Source: a virus
Length of the DNA stretch: 29,511 bases
IMG/VR virus record: IMGVR_UViG_3300017779_005138
Location: 1 to 29,511 of that record
Strand: one strand, 5' to 3'
Both the position numbers and the translations under genes were made by a program. Within the stretch, counting starts at the first letter, position 1; each line of letters starts with the position of its first letter. The notes under the pieces are model-generated. The model was not told the DNA's origin. It saw only the letters and a program-made list of their open reading frames with translations, and did not search any database. Below, one piece after another: positions 4,593 to 17,702 of the stretch.

Positions 4593-5029
4593 TTTTCCCA
4601 TCTGTAAAATATATGTGATTCTATTCTTGTTGTTCTTGTTTTAGTTTTAGCCCATGATGGCCTAACATAAGTAGCATGATAGTGTGTTGATCCTTCTGTG
4701 AGATCATAAGCTATTCTTCCTGAATATACTATTCTTGCATAATCCATAGCTTTAAACCACTGCTTACTATCTTTATTAGGTATATCAGACTTACCATCAC
4801 AGTACCAACTAAACTGACACCTATGTCTAACTGGATGTTCTTTAGTTGGATCCTTCCATGAAGGTCTATGTTCTCCTTGATAAACGACTTCGCAAACTGT
4901 ATTTGGAAATCTGCTATCCTGTACTCTATTCATAACTACTTGGCCAACTGCTACTTGACCTACCATAGATTGATTCTTCGCCTCCCAATACATATTGAGT
5001 GCGAGACACATTACTGCTTCTGCAAACAT
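4589..5029 (-). CDS. SleB/CwlJ-type cell-wall hydrolase (probable endolysin)
   Basis: 146 residues matching the Hydrolase_2 (SleB) fold. Visible signatures are NMYWEAKNQS near the N-terminus, with the expected catalytic Glu at 16, then VGQVVMNRV, CQFSWYCDG and the closing TEGSTHYHATYVRPSW block. The family cleaves peptidoglycan (lytic transglycosylase or amidase-like). In phages it serves as endolysin or virion-associated lysin. There is no signal peptide, so export would need a holin or another route. The GAGGAG ribosome site and the TAATG junction with the upstream gene support the start. The neighbouring two-helix membrane protein (5615-5794) is a possible holin partner. Confidence 0.85.
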   Translation of the reverse strand: MFAEAVMCLALNMYWEAKNQSMVGQVAVGQVVMNRVQDSRFPNTVCEVVYQGEHRPSWKDPTKEHPVRHRCQFSWYCDGKSDIPNKDSKQWFKAMDYARIVYSGRIAYDLTEGSTHYHATYVRPSWAKTKTRTTRIESHIFYRWEK

Positions 5030-5385
5030 TAGTTTCTCCTCATTGTTGCATAATCTTTTGGATTGCCATCTCTAGTAACTGGCACAAGATTTGATTTATG
5101 CATTGTTGCAATACCTTGTATAAAGGTTCCTGTGTATTGCTGAGTTCTCTTACGAGACCCATTATTTGGAACTGAATCTGAAGTTTTTGCTGTACTTCTT
5201 ATATTTTCTTTGTAATCAGGAATATCGTGTATTCCTTTGTTTGATTCAGCTCCTGTAATGCCCATCTTTTTTAAGAACTTTTCATGTTCTTGATGAGCCT
5301 TATCTTGCTTTCGTGAAAATTTACGTTTACGCTTACGACTGTGTTTAGTAGTTGTAAAGTAAACCGGTAAAAGATGCATGGTCAT
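5029..5385 (-). CDS. Basic conserved phage protein, function unknown
   Basis: 118 residues. It starts HLLPVYFTTTKHSRKRKRKF and is strongly basic in the first 50 residues. The C-terminal half has a TGTFIQGIATMHKSNLVPV block that I associate with small conserved proteins of marine phages, without known function. The high charge suggests nucleic-acid contact. Its TAA overlaps the hydrolase ATG, and it begins 4 bp after the preceding gene. A second Met two codons in (MTM) leaves the start slightly uncertain. Confidence 0.7.
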   Translation of the reverse strand: MTMHLLPVYFTTTKHSRKRKRKFSRKQDKAHQEHEKFLKKMGITGAESNKGIHDIPDYKENIRSTAKTSDSVPNNGSRKRTQQYTGTFIQGIATMHKSNLVPVTRDGNPKDYATMRRN

Positions 5386-5388
5386 GAC

Positions 5389-5622
5389 TTAATCCCAATC
5401 ATTATCCATAGCGACTGTATCACGCATCGCATCACCGTAATGTTGATCTGCATATTTTGATGCATCGGTATAGTGATATGGGTTAGAGCCATTATCATAT
5501 TTATCTAAGTACAATGTTTCTGATAAACGAACTTTAGAATTTCGTTGTACCTTCTTTGTAAGCTTTTTTGAAAGCTTTCGTACTAATGCGATTCTTTGTT
5601 TATTTGTCAATTCTTTAGCCAT
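5389..5622 (-). CDS. Small basic phage protein, function unknown
   Basis: 77 residues, with a basic helical N-terminal half (KQRIALVRKLSKKLTKKVQR) and an acidic, Tyr-rich C-terminal half. No recognised domain. The ATG is preceded by GGAGG, and the start overlaps by 8 bases the end of the upstream two-helix membrane protein. Likely part of the same transcript as the hydrolase. Confidence 0.7.
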   Translation of the reverse strand: MAKELTNKQRIALVRKLSKKLTKKVQRNSKVRLSETLYLDKYDNGSNPYHYTDASKYADQHYGDAMRDTVAMDNDWD

Positions 5623-5794
5623 AATATCCTCCTATTAAATAAGCTAACCATAATGTAAAAAGCGACAGTATTGTCACGTAAGTTTTTTGAAATAATAGCC
5701 ATAGCCCAACCAAGATAAAGAGGAGAAAAATAAGCGGTTGAGCTGTGGCCTCAACGTATAGGAATGAAATGATGCTGTTAAATGTGTCCATCAT
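5615..5794 (-). CDS. 59-residue two-helix membrane protein, possible holin
   Basis: Starts at ATG 5792-5794 behind AAGGAA, with a second Met right after it. The sequence contains a hydrophobic stretch LIFLLFILVGLWLLF, then QKTYV, then a second hydrophobic stretch ending LIGGYYG. Two membrane helices joined by a short basic turn, about 60 residues long, is the size and topology of many small phage holins. The gene lies three positions upstream of a SleB-type hydrolase on the same strand. A holin role is therefore plausible but inferred only from topology and neighbourhood. The frame overlaps the next gene by 8 bases. Confidence 0.65.
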   Translation of the reverse strand: MMDTFNSIISFLYVEATAQPLIFLLFILVGLWLLFQKTYVTILSLFTLWLAYLIGGYYG

Positions 5795-5810
5795 GATTTG
5801 TTTCCTTACG

Positions 5811-5987
5811 TTATCCTAAGATTCCTTCTTCAGCTTCTCGGTCTTGCAAGTGAATCATAAATTCAGATGCTAAGTCATAAGTAGTTGAAGGAAACCTATC
5901 TACCATTTTTTGAGCTAAAGTTTTCTTTTGCTCGTCTGACATCCCGATTAGGGTGTCTATTACGTTTTTATAATCAAAAATATCCAT
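5811..5987 (-). CDS. 58-residue acidic protein, function unknown
   Basis: Frame from ATG 5985-5987 (MDIFDYKNVIDTLIGMSDEQ) to TAA 5811-5813, behind a GGAG ribosome site and the first gene after the promoter at 6021-6049. Helical and acidic, ending DREAEEGILG. No transmembrane segment or Cys. Promoter, spacing and codon pattern all support translation. I do not recognise the family. Confidence 0.7.
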   Translation of the reverse strand: MDIFDYKNVIDTLIGMSDEQKKTLAQKMVDRFPSTTYDLASEFMIHLQDREAEEGILG

Positions 5988-8467: not shown

Positions 8468-8552
8468 TGGCTCTGGGGGGTGGAGTCGAACCACCACGTC
8501 GTTAGACAATACATAAACAGTGTATCGCGTCTACCAATTCCGCCACCCCAGA
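8468..8552 (-). tRNA. tRNA with GUU (Asn) anticodon in a class-II, Leu-like body, CCA encoded
   Basis: 85 nt including CCA. Acceptor stem 8546-8552 with 8472-8478 (TCTGGGG/CCCCAGA) is perfect. The D arm is GCG..CGC with GG in the loop. The anticodon stem is ATACA/TGTAT with loop CTGTTTA, giving anticodon GTT at 8516-8518. The variable arm is long (TGTC-TAAC-GACG), and the T arm is GGTGG-TTCGACT-CCACC. The body up to GGCGGAATTGGTAGACGCG is the signature of bacterial tRNA-Leu, but the anticodon is Asn and the discriminator base is G73, which AsnRS of E. coli uses and LeuRS (A73) does not. It lies 5 bp after the synthetase-like gene and is probably co-transcribed with it. Confidence 0.9.
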
Positions 8553-8557
8553 TCAGA

Positions 8558-9385
8558 TTATGCAGCTTTAGCTTGTCTCCATTCTTCAGCCTTTTCGACT
8601 GCTGCTATCATTCTTGTCATACCGATTCCACCACCGACTCGAGGAAAGAAATCCATAGCTAAGAAGTCTTTAAGCTCTTGTTCAACTCTATCTTTTCCAA
8701 ATAACTTATAAAGAAGTTCAGCGTACTTACCTTCACTAATTGTATGGAACGTATGAGACATTTGCTCTTTATCAGTACTTCTTTCTGCAGAACCGATTGT
8801 TTCCATACCGTTTAATATTACATCAATCTTCTTACTTGTAAGTTCATCGTTATGGCGTGACATATTCCAGAATGGTGATGTAAATTCTGGAAAGTTTGTT
8901 ATCATTCCCCAACCAATCTCGTCTTCGTGCTCATTCTCAATCTCTTCAACTTCAAATTGATCTTGCCACTCCTTGTATGTTCTAATATCTAGCTCAGGAA
9001 AACCAAGATATTCACATAGTTCTATCTCCATGGCTTTAAGATCATTAATATCTCCTGGAAATTCAAATTCAAACATTGGAAATATGGTTTCATGTCGTCC
9101 TTCTACTGGCCTTGGTTCCTGTCTGTAGGAAGTCGAGATACAAAAAAACCCGTTCTCTGACGGGTTGGTTAATAACTCATATTCTAGCCACATTTGTCCC
9201 GTCTGCGGGAGCGGCCATATATTACCATTATATTGATATGTTGCTACTGTTTCTGGATCCTCACAAGCTGCTAATATACTCAGTCTATTTTGAGTATGAA
9301 CTTCATGGAACCCTTTAGATAAAAAAAAGGACCTTAAAAGGTCCGCTGTTTTAGTAAATTTTTGTGGTTTAATTAGCGATGTCAT
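8558..9385 (-). CDS. Class II aminoacyl-tRNA synthetase core, AsnRS/AspRS-like, no anticodon domain
   Basis: 275 residues covering only a class II catalytic core. Motif 1 is around LRSFFLSKGFHEVHT (residues 17-31). Motif 2 is around STSYRQEPRPVEGRHETIFP (84-103), with the class II Arg and HE. The NGMETIGSAERSTD stretch (192-205) matches the Asp/Asn/Lys-RS NGxEixxGxxR block. Motif 3 is GGGIGMTR (251-258). Full AsnRS or AspRS is over 400 residues because of an N-terminal OB anticodon domain, which is missing here. Such trimmed paralogues exist, for example the archaeal AsnRS-related asparagine synthetase. Either charging of the adjacent GUU tRNA or amino-acid amidation would fit. The ribosome site AGGAG precedes ATG, and a TATAAATA box lies 35 bp upstream. 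Confidence 0.82.
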   Translation of the reverse strand: MTSLIKPQKFTKTADLLRSFFLSKGFHEVHTQNRLSILAACEDPETVATYQYNGNIWPLPQTGQMWLEYELLTNPSENGFFCISTSYRQEPRPVEGRHETIFPMFEFEFPGDINDLKAMEIELCEYLGFPELDIRTYKEWQDQFEVEEIENEHEDEIGWGMITNFPEFTSPFWNMSRHNDELTSKKIDVILNGMETIGSAERSTDKEQMSHTFHTISEGKYAELLYKLFGKDRVEQELKDFLAMDFFPRVGGGIGMTRMIAAVEKAEEWRQAKAA

Positions 9386-13625: not shown

Positions 13626-14434
13626 GATGATATTGTAGTTCCTTTATTATGTGTCAAGTATTTTTGTAATGGTGATATCGCCCATACTTCATGCGATTGT
13701 CTACTAGCAATCTTATGACTTGGAAATCCTTCATTGACATGGTCAAAAGCATGACAATCTGTCCAACCATCATATATGTCAAAAATACCATCATCTTCAT
13801 ATAACTGTTTATACTTCTCCCACCAAGCGTTATAATCAGGATGCTGTGTATCCCACATTATAAATCCTGATTCCATGTGTTTATGCGGAGCTCTATTTAA
13901 ATAATGAGTAATACAACCTTCTTGTGCTAAAGATGGAAAGAAGTCTTCAGGTATCTTTTCTCTTATCACAACGTCAGCGTCAATTGATATTAAGTATCTT
14001 TCTTCTATAGTATTATAAGCTTCAATTAATGAGAAAGGTGCATGACAAAATCTAACAGCATCAAACTCATAATCGTATCCGTCCTTAAAATTTATATTAT
14101 TTTTATAGTGGTGATAATCATATACTTTAAAATGTTTCTTTATCATCTTACCACTAGATCTTTTTTGAAACTCTTTAATTTTTTCTATAGGATGAGGTAA
14201 GAATTCAACCTTTTCAGTGCTTTCGGGTAAGTTATCTCCTTCATAATAAACTCTCATAGAAGCATTATCTGGCAATAGTTCATTAGCTTGTTTAGCTAGT
14301 TGCATACCCCTGGAAATAGTTTCATCTTCAAATCTAGACCAATATCTTTTAGCTTTGTCATTAAGTTTACTAATATCGATACTACTAGCTTTTAGCGGCT
14401 TATCTAAAAATGTAGTTATTATTTTAAACTTCAT
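13622..14434 (-). CDS. Glycosyltransferase-like protein with DAD motif
   Basis: 270 residues. YLISIDADVVIREKIP supplies a D-A-D motif at the end of a hydrophobic strand, typical of GT-A nucleotide-sugar transferases. It is followed by HMESGFIMWDTQHPDY, resembling the acceptor-side block of these enzymes. The family is not certain. It overlaps the aminotransferase gene by 11 bases and the next gene by 4. Its place directly after the aminotransferase suggests it could use the amino sugar made there. Confidence 0.6.
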   Translation of the reverse strand: MKFKIITTFLDKPLKASSIDISKLNDKAKRYWSRFEDETISRGMQLAKQANELLPDNASMRVYYEGDNLPESTEKVEFLPHPIEKIKEFQKRSSGKMIKKHFKVYDYHHYKNNINFKDGYDYEFDAVRFCHAPFSLIEAYNTIEERYLISIDADVVIREKIPEDFFPSLAQEGCITHYLNRAPHKHMESGFIMWDTQHPDYNAWWEKYKQLYEDDGIFDIYDGWTDCHAFDHVNEGFPSHKIASRQSHEVWAISPLQKYLTHNKGTTISS

Positions 14435-15395
14435 TTAATAACCTTTTTACTTCATATGCTTTATCTCTAACAACATTTAGAAGTTCTCTTGGATCCACAT
14501 TAACATAAAACACAGACTCGCTCATACCTTTTGCTACATGATTTGGTACCCAATGATCAAACAGAGGTTGTTTTGATAAAGGCTTAAATGAATGACGTGC
14601 TGTAATTCCATTGCTATTTAACAACTCAACCATGGTGTCAGGTTTTGGATGTTTCATATCGTATACCCATACAGCTTTTCGATTATTAGGCATATGATAT
14701 TCTTCTGGTATTACATCATTGTATATGTCGCATATCTTATGTCTTTTAAACATGTTAATGCTATACTGTTCTAAAGATTCTAAAGCCATCGTTGCTTGAG
14801 AGTCTGGCATCCTATAATTAAAACCAATACGTTTATGATAATAATTATGTTTGTTACCAAAGCTCATGTTTTTCATGTCTTGAGCTTTTTCGATGAAGGC
14901 TTTATCATTACTTGTTATGATGCCACCTTCTTCTGCATGTATTATCTTGTTACGGTAAAAAGAAAAACAGCCTATATCGTATGTGCCTACTTCAGCACCT
15001 TGAGCCTCACACGCATCTTCAATAACTCTTAACTTATATTTCTTTGCTATATAATCAACACGATCCATGTCTACTGTACGGCCATATACATGTGTAATCA
15101 TTAATATTCTTGATCGCCATTTATTAACAGCCATGTCAAAGTGTTTTTCAACTTTATCTAAATCAATCAATAGATTTTCATCGCAATCTATAAAGACTGG
15201 AGTCAACCTTGCATAGTGTACTGCAAGACCAGAAGCATACATCGTAAAATCTGGAACTATTACTTGTGTATCATTCGGCATCTCTAAAGCTTCGATAGCC
15301 AAATGCAATGCAGCTGTTCCGGTGTTAGTGGCACATGCGTATTTAGTTCCTGTAAACTTAGCGTATTTTTCTTCTAGTTCTTGATAAGGAAACAT
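14424..15395 (-). CDS. DegT/DnrJ/EryC1/StrS-family sugar aminotransferase
   Basis: 323 residues of a fold-type I PLP enzyme. Near the N-terminus is FTGTKYACATNTGTAALHLA, the phosphate-binding turn. VIEDACEAQG (Asp127) holds the residue that contacts the PLP nitrogen. FSFYRNKIIHAEEGGIIT (Lys150) is the Schiff-base lysine followed by the EGG turn. The family converts 4- or 3-keto NDP-sugars into amino sugars. Slightly shorter than the usual 360-390 residues. The upstream SDR gene (15597-16553) looks like a 4,6-dehydratase and could supply the keto sugar, as in perosamine-type pathways. Confidence 0.85.
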   Translation of the reverse strand: MFPYQELEEKYAKFTGTKYACATNTGTAALHLAIEALEMPNDTQVIVPDFTMYASGLAVHYARLTPVFIDCDENLLIDLDKVEKHFDMAVNKWRSRILMITHVYGRTVDMDRVDYIAKKYKLRVIEDACEAQGAEVGTYDIGCFSFYRNKIIHAEEGGIITSNDKAFIEKAQDMKNMSFGNKHNYYHKRIGFNYRMPDSQATMALESLEQYSINMFKRHKICDIYNDVIPEEYHMPNNRKAVWVYDMKHPKPDTMVELLNSNGITARHSFKPLSKQPLFDHWVPNHVAKGMSESVFYVNVDPRELLNVVRDKAYEVKRLLNEV

Positions 15396-15397
15396 AG

Positions 15398-15595
15398 TTA
15401 GCCTTCTTCATGATTAAGATTAAGATAATCATCTATGCAAGTGTAAGCTTTTCCCTTTCCTAAAACAGATAGTTTAACCATTTCTTCAAAACATGGTTTA
15501 TATTCTTTGTAGTAGTTGACACCTTGACCTTCTAATGTACCATCAGGGTTTAAAGTTACCATTATTAAAATCCATCCGTATAATATTTCATTCAT
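15398..15595 (-). CDS. Small protein with hydrophobic N-terminus and Cys pair
   Basis: 65 residues: a hydrophobic start (ILYGWILIMVTL), a DGTLEGQG turn, then two cysteines about 18 residues apart (KPCFEEM, YTCIDDY). The same plan, hydrophobic strand or leader, D/G turn, Cys in a helix, second Cys near the end, occurs at 19641-19823 and 29041-29295. These may form a small paralogous family of envelope-directed, disulfide-bonded proteins. No known domain. Confidence 0.6.
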   Translation of the reverse strand: MNEILYGWILIMVTLNPDGTLEGQGVNYYKEYKPCFEEMVKLSVLGKGKAYTCIDDYLNLNHEEG

Positions 15596-15596
15596 T

Positions 15597-16553
15597 TTAC
15601 CAATCCCATTTACTTCCGTTTTGCTTATAATAATTTATAGTTTTTTTAACTGCGTCCTCCATACATACCTGAGGCCTAGTACTTATCGCGCCATACAACT
15701 TTGTGTTATCTGATTGAAGATGCCATATCTCCCATGGTCTAACCTTTGACTCATCAACTTCAATATCAATAGAATTATGACCCATGATTTTGCCAACCAT
15801 TTCTGCTAAGTCATATATCTTGATGCCATCTTCACTTCCCATATTATATACTTCACCCCACTTACCATTCTCTAATAAGTCAACTGCCATTCTTACAGCA
15901 TCACCTGCGTATTGGAAATCTCTAAATGAGTTATTACCTAATCGAACAGTGCTTGATTCTGATAACTGAGATATTATTTCAGGTAAAACATATTCGTGCG
16001 TTTCTCTTTCACCGATACAATTAAACTGTCTCATAGCGATAGCGTTAAGACCTGATTCCTTATGGCGTACTTGAACTAAACCATCTGCTGCAAGTTTTGA
16101 TACTCCGTAAGTTGAGTGAGGTTCTACTGGATCTGATTCTTTTATCTTTCCAGTCATATTACCATATATCTCTGCAGATGAAACTTGTAATAAACCTTTG
16201 ATGTTAACTTCTTCGCAAGCCGTAATTACTCTTAAAACCGAAGTTGCATTAATCTCAAAGAAGTGCATTGGCCTATTAAACCCTTCAGGAATATAGGGCT
16301 CTGCTGCATAATTAAAAACCCAATCTATATCATGAGCTTTGAAGAATGTAACTAACATTCTCCATTGTTGATTAATATCCCAATCTTCAAATAAAGCTTT
16401 TTCATGAATATGTTTCACAGAACCAGATACTAGATTATCAACGACTAATACTTTACAATTTCGTTCTTCTATAAGATAGTCAACGAGATGAGATCCTAAA
16501 AAACCTGCTCCACCTATGACACAGACATTAGCATCTCTTATTTCTCTATTCAT
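15597..16553 (-). CDS. NDP-sugar 4,6-dehydratase/epimerase (extended SDR)
   Basis: 318 residues from ATG 16551-16553, where GGAG lies 5-6 bases upstream. A longer frame to 16628 would overlap the upstream gene for 83 bases. Visible are the NAD site GGAGFLGS (14-21), SSAEIYG (125-131), and the catalytic YGVSK (Tyr149, Lys153). MRQFNCIGERETHEYVLPEI and the late RPWEIWHLQSDNTK (quoted in parts) match GDP-mannose or dTDP-glucose 4,6-dehydratases. The Glu in SSAE favours a dehydratase over a simple epimerase. It would feed a keto sugar to the DegT aminotransferase just downstream. Confidence 0.82.
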   Translation of the reverse strand: MNREIRDANVCVIGGAGFLGSHLVDYLIEERNCKVLVVDNLVSGSVKHIHEKALFEDWDINQQWRMLVTFFKAHDIDWVFNYAAEPYIPEGFNRPMHFFEINATSVLRVITACEEVNIKGLLQVSSAEIYGNMTGKIKESDPVEPHSTYGVSKLAADGLVQVRHKESGLNAIAMRQFNCIGERETHEYVLPEIISQLSESSTVRLGNNSFRDFQYAGDAVRMAVDLLENGKWGEVYNMGSEDGIKIYDLAEMVGKIMGHNSIDIEVDESKVRPWEIWHLQSDNTKLYGAISTRPQVCMEDAVKKTINYYKQNGSKWDW

Positions 16554-16842
16554 GTTCTCCACCGTTGCCTCTTCCATTATATCCATCAAATATTTGAGGT
16601 TTTCTCTTTGCTGTTTCAAAAGTTGCAACTGTAACTACTACAGCAGCTATTATACACAAGTGTGCGACCACTGAAAATCCCCATATCCACATACTACCGT
16701 ATGCAAGTGCAAAACTACTCGCCCACGTCCACGCAAGTATTTGTAAAATCATATGTCTTGCTTGTAAGCTTGGAATATTTCGCAGTGGATTATGATCTGC
16801 ATTCATTAACGTATTCCACATATTGTAAATTGCTTCTCTCAT
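16546..16842 (-). CDS. Small multi-pass membrane protein, function unknown
   Basis: 98 residues with two hydrophobic helices, roughly residues 31-54 (MILQILAWTWASSFALAYG) and 55-73 (FSVVAHLCIIAAVVVTVATF), followed by a basic, Gly-rich tail. It overlaps both SDR genes by a few bases. A membrane protein placed between two sugar-nucleotide enzymes could anchor or export glycan intermediates, but no family is recognised. Confidence 0.65.
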   Translation of the reverse strand: MREAIYNMWNTLMNADHNPLRNIPSLQARHMILQILAWTWASSFALAYGSMWIWGFSVVAHLCIIAAVVVTVATFETAKRKPQIFDGYNGRGNGGEHE

Positions 16843-17702
16843 TTTTCATATTCAAGTGCATCTCTGCACATGTCCTCTAATGTTTGGGTTTCTTTAAAAA
16901 ATCTTGATTCTAAAGGGATAGTTGAAACTGGAATATCTCCTGGTCTTCTTTCTTTAGACATAACTAAAAACTCTTTACCAGATACCTTCTTCATAGTATC
17001 TATTACTTCTTTAACTGTAACTCCATGTTTGGATCCTAAGCACTCTACTTTGTTAGTAGCATCTGCTTCAGTTATCCTCACTATACCATCTACTATATCT
17101 TTGATATGTGTGTAATTTCTAACACATGTACCATCTCGAGTATCATAATCTGTACCAAATAATGGCATAAATGGGTGATCGTTACCCATTGAATTTGCAA
17201 CTCTTGCAGCTTTTCTTATAAGATGGCTTATTTCATCGTCAAACTTATAAAAACCATTGTTGCCGCTTACATTATAAAATCTTACTAAACTATATTTGTC
17301 ATAAAATTGTTGAGTTATAAGTTCTCCGCCCCATTTTGTAGCTGCATATGCATTTGAGCCAGGATTAAAAGCTGATCCAGTTGAACAGTATATAAAATGC
17401 CAACAAGGAAAAGCTTCGATAATTTTTTTTGTGCCATTAACGTTAGTATCATAATAATCCCATGGTTCATCAACAGATGGGCCTACCTTTGTCTTTGCTG
17501 CTACGTGCACAACCTTATCTACGTTATGATATTTTCCGCTTATTGTTCTGATATCAAAGTTTATGTATTCATCACACCACATTGATATATCATTTTGATT
17601 GTCATTATAATCTGTTGCAAGAATCCAATGGCCTTTTTCTTTTAGTGCTTTACATATATGCGCACCAATATAACCAGTAGCTCCTGTTACCAATATTTTC
17701 AT
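16839..17702 (-). CDS. NAD-dependent NDP-sugar epimerase (GalE-like SDR)
   Basis: 287 residues. VTGATGYIGAHI (5-16) is the NAD-binding glycine motif. YCSTGSAF and NAYAATKWGGE give the catalytic Tyr119 and Lys123. The ends IKDIVDGIVRI and NKVECLGSKHGVTVKEV match UDP-glucose 4-epimerase-type enzymes. Slightly short for GalE (about 330). Its ATG overlaps the TGA of the 30-residue peptide (ATGA), so translation is coupled. Exact substrate unknown. Confidence 0.8.
   Translation of the reverse strand: MKILVTGATGYIGAHICKALKEKGHWILATDYNDNQNDISMWCDEYINFDIRTISGKYHNVDKVVHVAAKTKVGPSVDEPWDYYDTNVNGTKKIIEAFPCWHFIYCSTGSAFNPGSNAYAATKWGGELITQQFYDKYSLVRFYNVSGNNGFYKFDDEISHLIRKAARVANSMGNDHPFMPLFGTDYDTRDGTCVRNYTHIKDIVDGIVRITEADATNKVECLGSKHGVTVKEVIDTMKKVSGKEFLVMSKERRPGDIPVSTIPLESRFFKETQTLEDMCRDALEYEK

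Follow-up and report, generated by a model that had tools for sequence, protein, structure and literature searches.

The DNA analysed here comprises positions 1 to 29,511 of the virus record IMGVR_UViG_3300017779_005138, a stretch of 29,511 nucleotides (nt), hereafter the window. Its minus strand carries a tRNA gene of mixed character and, upstream on the same strand and ending 5 nt before it, a gene for an enzyme resembling asparaginyl-tRNA synthetase (AsnRS) (Table 1). ARAGORN calls a single tRNA in the window, a tRNA-Asn(gtt) at 8468-8552, the Rfam tRNA model RF00005 matches at 8552-8471 with 49.6 bits, and our own covariance model R1, of which the window tRNA is itself a row, gives 98.3 bits. 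The acceptor stem is UCUGGGG/CCCCAGA, the D arm GGCGGAAUUGGUAGACGC and the anticodon loop C-U-G-U-U-U-A, with U33, the anticodon GUU and U37. An initial annotation of this DNA had described a tRNA with the D arm and long variable arm of tRNA-Leu, an Asn anticodon and G73. This description holds, as anticodon and G73 are read in the sequence, and the D arm shows a perfect 19-nt identity with the tRNA-Leu of one fetched locus (score 19.0, compared with 7.0 for the best ordinary tRNA-Asn). The best scores of the whole tRNA are 20.5 for Leu, 12.5 for Tyr and 11.5 for Asn, and the annotated phage-database matches that span most of it are mainly tRNA-Leu. Single-strand folding of the 85-mer is uninformative, with a z of -1.30. 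A long variable arm is not shared by all phage tRNA-Asn, since the six ordinary ones encoded in the fetched loci measure 72-77 nt; their loop is CUGUUAA. The minus strand, U37, U1-A72 and the synthetase-like gene had all escaped that annotation.

Table 1: Features of the enzyme/tRNA locus in the window.
Feature	Position	Strand	Evidence
AsnRS-like class II synthetase core, 275 aa (P0001), PHROG 29758	8558..9385	-	PF00152, PHROG, AlphaFold2
Region taken to be class II motif 2, residues 80-108; R88, R97, H98, E106, E108 invariant	9062..9148	-	alignments A1, A3
Region taken to be class II motif 3, GGGIGMTR, residues 251-258; R258 invariant	8612..8635	-	alignments A1, A3
Class II tRNA, anticodon GUU, G73 (8471), encoded CCA (8470-8468), U1-A72	8468..8552	-	ARAGORN, Rfam RF00005, covariation
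Anticodon GUU (8518-8516), then U at tRNA position 37 (8515)	8515..8518	-	sequence
Long variable region UGUCUAACGACGU, 13 nt, 3-bp stem	8496..8508	-	sequence; helix pairing in relatives

The enzyme matches the class II D/K/N synthetase core PF00152 (E 9e-15) and belongs to PHROG 29758 (E 1.8e-143), a family of unknown function; it is annotated as 'tRNA ligase' in the phages P-SSM2, P-SSM5 and P-SSM7 and corresponds to T4-GC 194 in cyanophages. Its AlphaFold2 model (predicted local distance difference test 91.7, predicted template modelling score 0.89) is most similar to the human AsnRS with Asn-AMP (8h53: Z 25.2, 244 residues aligned, root mean square deviation 2.6), followed by aspartyl-tRNA synthetase (AspRS, Z 24.3), archaeal asparagine synthetase A (AS-A, 22.9) and EpmA/GenX (22.8), and the best PDB sequence match of the A3 profile is again an AsnRS (2xgt, E 7e-12). 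The N-terminal anticodon-binding domain is missing, with residue 1 of the enzyme aligning to residue 230 of 8h53. Presumably E42, T62, Q64, E68, R88 and R202 are active-site residues. After QMW come L67 and E68, a pair that AsnRS shares (QLYLE) and AspRS does not (QLYKQ), and both are invariant in the 30 viral and cellular rows of A3. Because the Lys of AspRS, which holds the carboxylate of Asp, is replaced in the enzyme, L67-E68 in place of K-Q favours Asn as the ligand. The curated asnS model TIGR00457 gives only 14.2 bits with a cut-off of 342.6, the asparagine synthetase A model PRK06462 22.8 bits with a cut-off of 389, and the enzyme is also far below the curated aspS cut-off. Judged from sequence and predicted fold, it is an AsnRS paralogue reduced to the catalytic core.

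Enzyme and tRNA recur together as a two-gene unit carried by marine phages, hereafter the module. A scan starting from the enzyme kept 80 of 149 relatives, near copies included (e.g. L075-L079), and the enzyme-first set comprises 83 virus loci (the window, L002 and L010-L090); tRNAs were counted as distinct sequences. In 66 of the 83 the tRNA follows the enzyme gene on the same strand at a distance of up to 700 nt, 16 have no such tRNA, and in one the downstream region is cut by the contig end. In the opposite direction, a search with a DNA pattern independent of the enzyme (Leu D arm plus GTTT at the anticodon) fetched at least 119 loci, and among the matches listed the enzyme lies upstream on the same strand in 104 of 119 (69 of 80 in a subset). 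From the 15 listed loci without enzyme, six have less than 400 nt of upstream sequence (L204, L233, L249, L250, L261, L311) and nine have more; in L222, L225, L251 and L282 the sequence does not continue as an intact tRNA when inspected by eye. A whole-record search of L222, L225, L229, L251, L263 and L268, made with no positive control, found no enzyme. In P-SSM7 the annotated tRNA-Asn begins 9 nt after the enzyme gene, and in P-SSM2 R1 places the tRNA at 162083-162168, 10 nt past the annotated end of the enzyme gene. The annotated tRNA-Asn of P-SSM2 (L010, AY939844.2) at 164094-164179, about 2 kb away, seems to be misplaced.

A tree of 115 enzymes separates the viral rows (39 with and 13 without the tRNA) from 63 cellular rows, the split being weak (44/63) and the tree unrooted. 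As L097 and L168, which branch deepest among the viral rows, carry the tRNA, one gain and about five losses are the simplest account, within the limits of such a split and an unrooted tree. At two loci (L082:5868-6165 and L089:5861-6158) the enzyme gene is followed by an alphaproteobacterial permuted transfer-messenger RNA (tmRNA) with the tag ADENLALAA instead of the GUU tRNA, and a tmRNA is also located near the module in L001, L029 and L090. In L095 the place of the tRNA after the enzyme gene (match 5001-5819) is taken by no more than an acceptor-like hairpin of 7 bp with GCCA at its end; a deleted tRNA body, a minihelix or an assembly fault are candidate explanations.

Which tRNA features are kept and which are lost was counted in the enzyme-first set, which has 46 distinct tRNAs, window included, with 115 distinct other tRNAs from the loci fetched by then as controls; pattern-first rows were left out of the counts at position 37, since the pattern fixes GTTT. 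GUU, U1 and G73 are each present in 46 of 46, which agrees with the proposal of the initial annotation that a Leu body had acquired Asn identity. Positions 33 and 37 serve decoding on the ribosome. At position 37 we find U in 41, C in three, A in two and G in none of the module tRNAs, compared to a purine in all 115 controls, and at position 33 U in 40, C in three, A in two and G in one, compared to U33 in 113 of 115. The decoding of AAY codons, also suggested in that annotation, therefore fits poorly with the U at position 37, and it is from positions 33 and 37 that we infer that the ribosome probably makes no use of this tRNA. For the bypass of host nucleases that the same annotation proposed, no pertinent evidence was found. 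The variable region measures 13-38 nt in 44 of the 46 and 6 nt in the other two (L066, L068). In the alignment A2 of 27 distinct relatives 99.7% of the cells are paired, with changes on both sides at 17 of 23 pairs, so the tRNA is not a chance structure; the variable-arm helix is 100% paired, and 26 of 27 rows have U-A at pair 1-72. The anticodon stem shows compensated variation at all five pairs, and therefore shared ancestry alone can hardly explain the fixed GUU and U37. In the T stem, all 96 of 96 module tRNAs have A-U or U-A at pair 51-63, versus 37 of 111 controls; A51-U63 weakens EF-Tu binding in the staphylococcal non-proteinogenic tRNA-Gly, according to the available part of PMC4052509.

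Bacterial Asn identity is given as G73, G34, U35, U36 and A37, and U1-A72 as a determinant for the amidation of Asp-tRNA-Asn (PMC9976931, available part). Apart from A37, the retained set is thus the one through which a tRNA receives Asn, be it directly or by amidation; the positions given up are those of decoding. Leucylation of the window tRNA is unlikely, because G73 acts against leucyl-tRNA synthetase (LeuRS), being described as an antideterminant for this enzyme in E. coli tRNA-Ser (same part of PMC9976931). Standard tools recognise the other copies unevenly: ARAGORN calls some of them Asp(atc) or Glu(ctc) and does not call others, and Rfam gathering matches cover the module tRNA in L001, L005, L022 and L025. 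No such match falls on the module tRNA in L017, L020 and L040, where a regular expression alone detects it.

The link to pyrimidine biosynthesis comes mostly from the cellular relatives of the enzyme. Scanning genomes of bacteria and archaea yielded 133 relatives, of which 80 were kept, and plasmids gave no match to a cellular homologue. By gene clusters, PyrD or PyrE/F homologues are located in the fetched flanks of 25 of 72 loci classed as cellular, and Pfam identifies DHO_dh, OMPdecase and phosphoribosyltransferase family members in L140, L104, L117 and L122, with some of the phosphoribosyltransferase matches below the cut-off. The gene order is pyrD / enzyme / pyrF / pyrE-like in Pasteurella atlantica and enzyme / pyrF / pyrD / prs in Midichloriaceae (prs named by eye). 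A Lyase_1 gene, ArgH-like by eye, lies between pyrF and the enzyme gene in a Patescibacterial pyrimidine operon (L122:3844-4935), and its cluster is also found in L145. In Weeksellaceae and relatives (L112, L115, L127, L160) a phosphoenolpyruvate carboxykinase is encoded upstream of the enzyme, assigned by Pfam for L112 and by cluster for the others.

From 19 genomes with the enzyme, CarB and PyrB each exceed the curated cut-off in just one, with two further weak matches for PyrB, and PyrC does so in one with TIGR00857 and in none with TIGR00856; in the controls PyrB, CarB and TIGR00857 were positive in 14 of 14 genomes and TIGR00856 in 10. Within one order, for which 148 genomes of at least 90% completeness were requested, the enzyme is present in five, all of which lack both PyrB and CarB. 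The 143 genomes without the enzyme have PyrB in 138 and CarB in 133 cases. The chance of all five falling among the gene-less genomes is, computed by hand and ignoring kinship, about 5e-7 for PyrB and 5e-6 for CarB. The cellular relatives seem to take the place of the initial pyrimidine steps (CarAB, PyrB and perhaps PyrC). Among the loci classed as viral, gene clusters place a homologue of PyrD, PyrF or a small phosphoribosyltransferase in 15 of 99, and Pfam finds DHO_dh and OMPdecase in L008 and DHO_dh in L022. Relatives of the phage PyrD (dihydroorotate dehydrogenase, DHODH) have the enzyme in five of 10 loci and those of the phage phosphoribosyltransferase in five of eight, several of these loci being the sources of the queries. 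The DHODH of L097 and the phosphoribosyltransferases of L048 and L140 are below the Pfam cut-off and L003 and L015 have no Pfam match, so that these assignments were made by clustering.

Our preferred explanation, which we consider about as likely as not, is that all this belongs to one system: a translation-disabled tRNA of Asn type would be the partner of an AsnRS paralogue, and the latter would substitute for the first pyrimidine steps. Enzyme and tRNA would then be a mobile two-gene phage module, with the tRNA being charged with Asn by the host AsnRS, by AspRS and GatCAB, or by the phage enzyme; the host enzymes would read GUU, and the phage enzyme would act without the usual anticodon reader. 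The charged tRNA would be largely withheld from translation, and the phage enzyme might use Asn-tRNA as substrate or amino-acid carrier on a route from asparagine to dihydroorotate. Such a route would bypass the regulated CarAB and PyrB of the host, and an enzyme with an AsnRS-type pocket could render both dispensable. In the virus loci and cells without the tRNA, ordinary Asn-tRNA might be used, or the enzyme might need no tRNA. L-Asparagine contains N1, C6, C5, C4 and N3 of dihydroorotate, and as C2 alone is missing, Asn, CO2 and one ATP-driven activation would suffice for this proposed chemistry. A strict tRNA-dependent version, in which Asn on the ribosome-unusable tRNA is turned into dihydroorotate by the AsnRS paralogue and CarAB, PyrB and PyrC are all replaced in one step, we hold to be rather improbable. 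It would proceed by carboxylation of the alpha-amino group and ring closure through the side-chain amide, with the overall reaction L-Asn + CO2 + ATP -> L-dihydroorotate + AMP + PPi taking place on or off the tRNA. With a tRNA of its own, the phage might obtain a nucleotide supply that does not compete with translation and is free of host feedback.

Several observations weigh against a pyrimidine route based on this tRNA. The enzyme occurs without it in 16 of the 83 enzyme-first virus loci; 13 of these 16 records, many of them fragments, were searched with R1, which detected no class II GUU tRNA elsewhere in them. As R1 does not discriminate in cells, giving matches in 19 of 19 genomes with ordinary tRNA-Leu included, a pattern requiring a Leu D arm was used there instead, and this pattern, which a GUU tRNA with another body would escape, is absent from all 19 cellular genomes with the enzyme. 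Given its absence from 16 virus loci and from every cell tested, the tRNA is not obligatory for the enzyme, and the result for the cells argues that the enzyme is not in general need of it. Conversely, L229, L263, L268, L285 and L317 have apparently true class II GUU tRNAs without the enzyme upstream; the loop of these tRNAs is UGUUU(C), and L229, L263 and L285 have an ordinary tRNA-Asn as well. The tRNA itself keeps G18 and G19, which are invariant in A2, as well as a strong G-C at pair 49-65 in 92 of 96 cases, and the loss of A37 as a listed bacterial Asn determinant may weaken charging. No pyr gene was seen around the module of the window, and no enzyme is nearby in five of the 10 phage DHODH and three of the eight phage phosphoribosyltransferase relatives. 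In cells, the enzyme coexists with PyrB and PyrC in one genome (G013) and with CarB in another (G005), six genomes have PyrC-like proteins of ambiguous status at 198-261 bits, below the TIGR00857 cut-off, and reduced genomes such as those of Patescibacteria and Midichloriaceae may lack CarAB and PyrB simply as auxotrophs.

Part of these points would be explained if the enzyme were a tRNA-independent pyrimidine ligase with free Asn, Asp or N-carbamoyl-Asp as its substrate and with the tRNA as an accessory for regulation or Asn-tRNA supply. The 19 cellular genomes and 16 virus loci without a dedicated tRNA fit this idea, as does the shared fold of archaeal AS-A, which is a tRNA-independent AsnRS paralogue. 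We nevertheless consider it unlikely, as deep virus branches have in common a tRNA with nearly the whole Asn identity set beside an AsnRS paralogue, and a mere accessory need not retain GUU, G73 and U1 without exception. If enzyme and tRNA were an orthogonal pair serving translation, with the tRNA charged by the phage enzyme and reading AAY codons in phage proteins or resisting a host anticodon nuclease, this would account for an AsnRS-like enzyme next to a tRNA with an invariant GUU. Such a pair is doubtful in view of the pyrimidine at position 37 in 44 of 46 copies and the non-U33 in six, with 0 and 2 of 115 in the controls; moreover, the relatives in cells have no such tRNA and are often surrounded by pyrimidine genes.

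With U37 in 41 of 46 copies, GUUU is the common four-base anticodon, and a frameshifting tRNA reading AAAC can be imagined; C37 in three and A37 in two copies speak against it, and as it also leaves the enzyme and the pyrimidine genes unexplained we think it very improbable. Hardly more credible is a serine identity with charging by seryl-tRNA synthetase (SerRS). G73 and a large variable arm are indeed serine determinants in the available part of PMC9976931, but the same part lists C72 in its serine identity table, where the module tRNAs have U-A at 1-72, and describes C2-G71, which is common in the module tRNAs, as a negative element for E. coli SerRS; the 6-nt variable regions of L066 and L068 do not fit either.

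In the window, the module is followed downstream by a gene for Fe-S biosynthesis (PF01521). Further away, a gp32-like DNA-binding protein is encoded at 1822-2733 and sugar-nucleotide genes (two NAD epimerase/dehydratases and a DegT aminotransferase) at 14424-17702, which suggests that the window derives from a T4-like phage. A PnrA-like substrate-binding protein (PF02608) and a 2-oxoglutarate-Fe(II) oxygenase recur near the module in 25 and 18 loci, respectively, for example at L023:1493-2557 and L023:2561-3421.

In the open-licence PMC literature we found no paper on the enzyme/tRNA phage unit or on a pyrimidine enzyme resembling AsnRS. To our knowledge, neither a phage unit made up of an AsnRS paralogue with a tRNA of its own nor the replacement of CarAB and PyrB by such a paralogue has been described. 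A cyanophage comparison from 2010 tabulates the 'tRNA ligase' in two phages, with no mention of a partner tRNA in the available part (PMC3037559). If the proposed pyrimidine route were true, a tRNA gene in phage metabolic operons would be an aminoacyl carrier instead of an adaptor, and there would be a second entry into pyrimidine biosynthesis without carbamoyl phosphate. It would then explain how bacteria without CarAB and PyrB, such as a 7.4-Mb Aureispira isolate, could make pyrimidines nonetheless, and both PHROG 29758 and the 'tRNA ligase' tabulated for cyanophages in 2010 would acquire a function. From the genetics alone, more than 100 virus contigs carry an uncharacterised synthetase/tRNA pair whose tRNA is annotated as tRNA-Asn or missed (149 enzyme-first relatives; 104 pattern-first loci among the matches listed).

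Taken singly, dedicated non-proteinogenic tRNAs, paralogues of AsnRS and tRNAs of phages are all familiar. The module tRNA resembles tRNA-Leu in its D arm and variable arm and differs from it by lacking a Leu anticodon and A73, a feature of tRNA-Leu, whereas it shares GUU, G73 and U1-A72 with canonical tRNA-Asn and has neither the purine (A37) at position 37 nor the short variable loop of the latter. The enzyme has the core fold of AsnRS and the L-E motif where AspRS has K-Q, and differs from AsnRS by its length of 275 aa, the missing anticodon-binding domain and the very low asnS score. Archaeal AS-A and EpmA/GenX are likewise free-standing class IIb cores, but they belong to sequence families different from that of the enzyme, as the PRK06462 score indicates for AS-A, and we know of neither being paired with a tRNA gene or located in pyrimidine operons. 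That primary metabolism can start from a charged tRNA has a precedent in the synthesis of 5-aminolevulinate from Glu-tRNA, which involves another amino acid, other enzymes, another product and no dedicated tRNA. A close parallel to the module tRNA is the non-proteinogenic tRNA-Gly used for peptidoglycan bridges in Staphylococcus aureus, which is also chargeable and has features barring it from translation, including A51-U63 (PMC4052509, available part); in contrast to it, the module tRNA keeps GG18-19 and is altered in the decoding loop at position 37, is Leu-like and phage-borne, and adjoins a synthetase paralogue.
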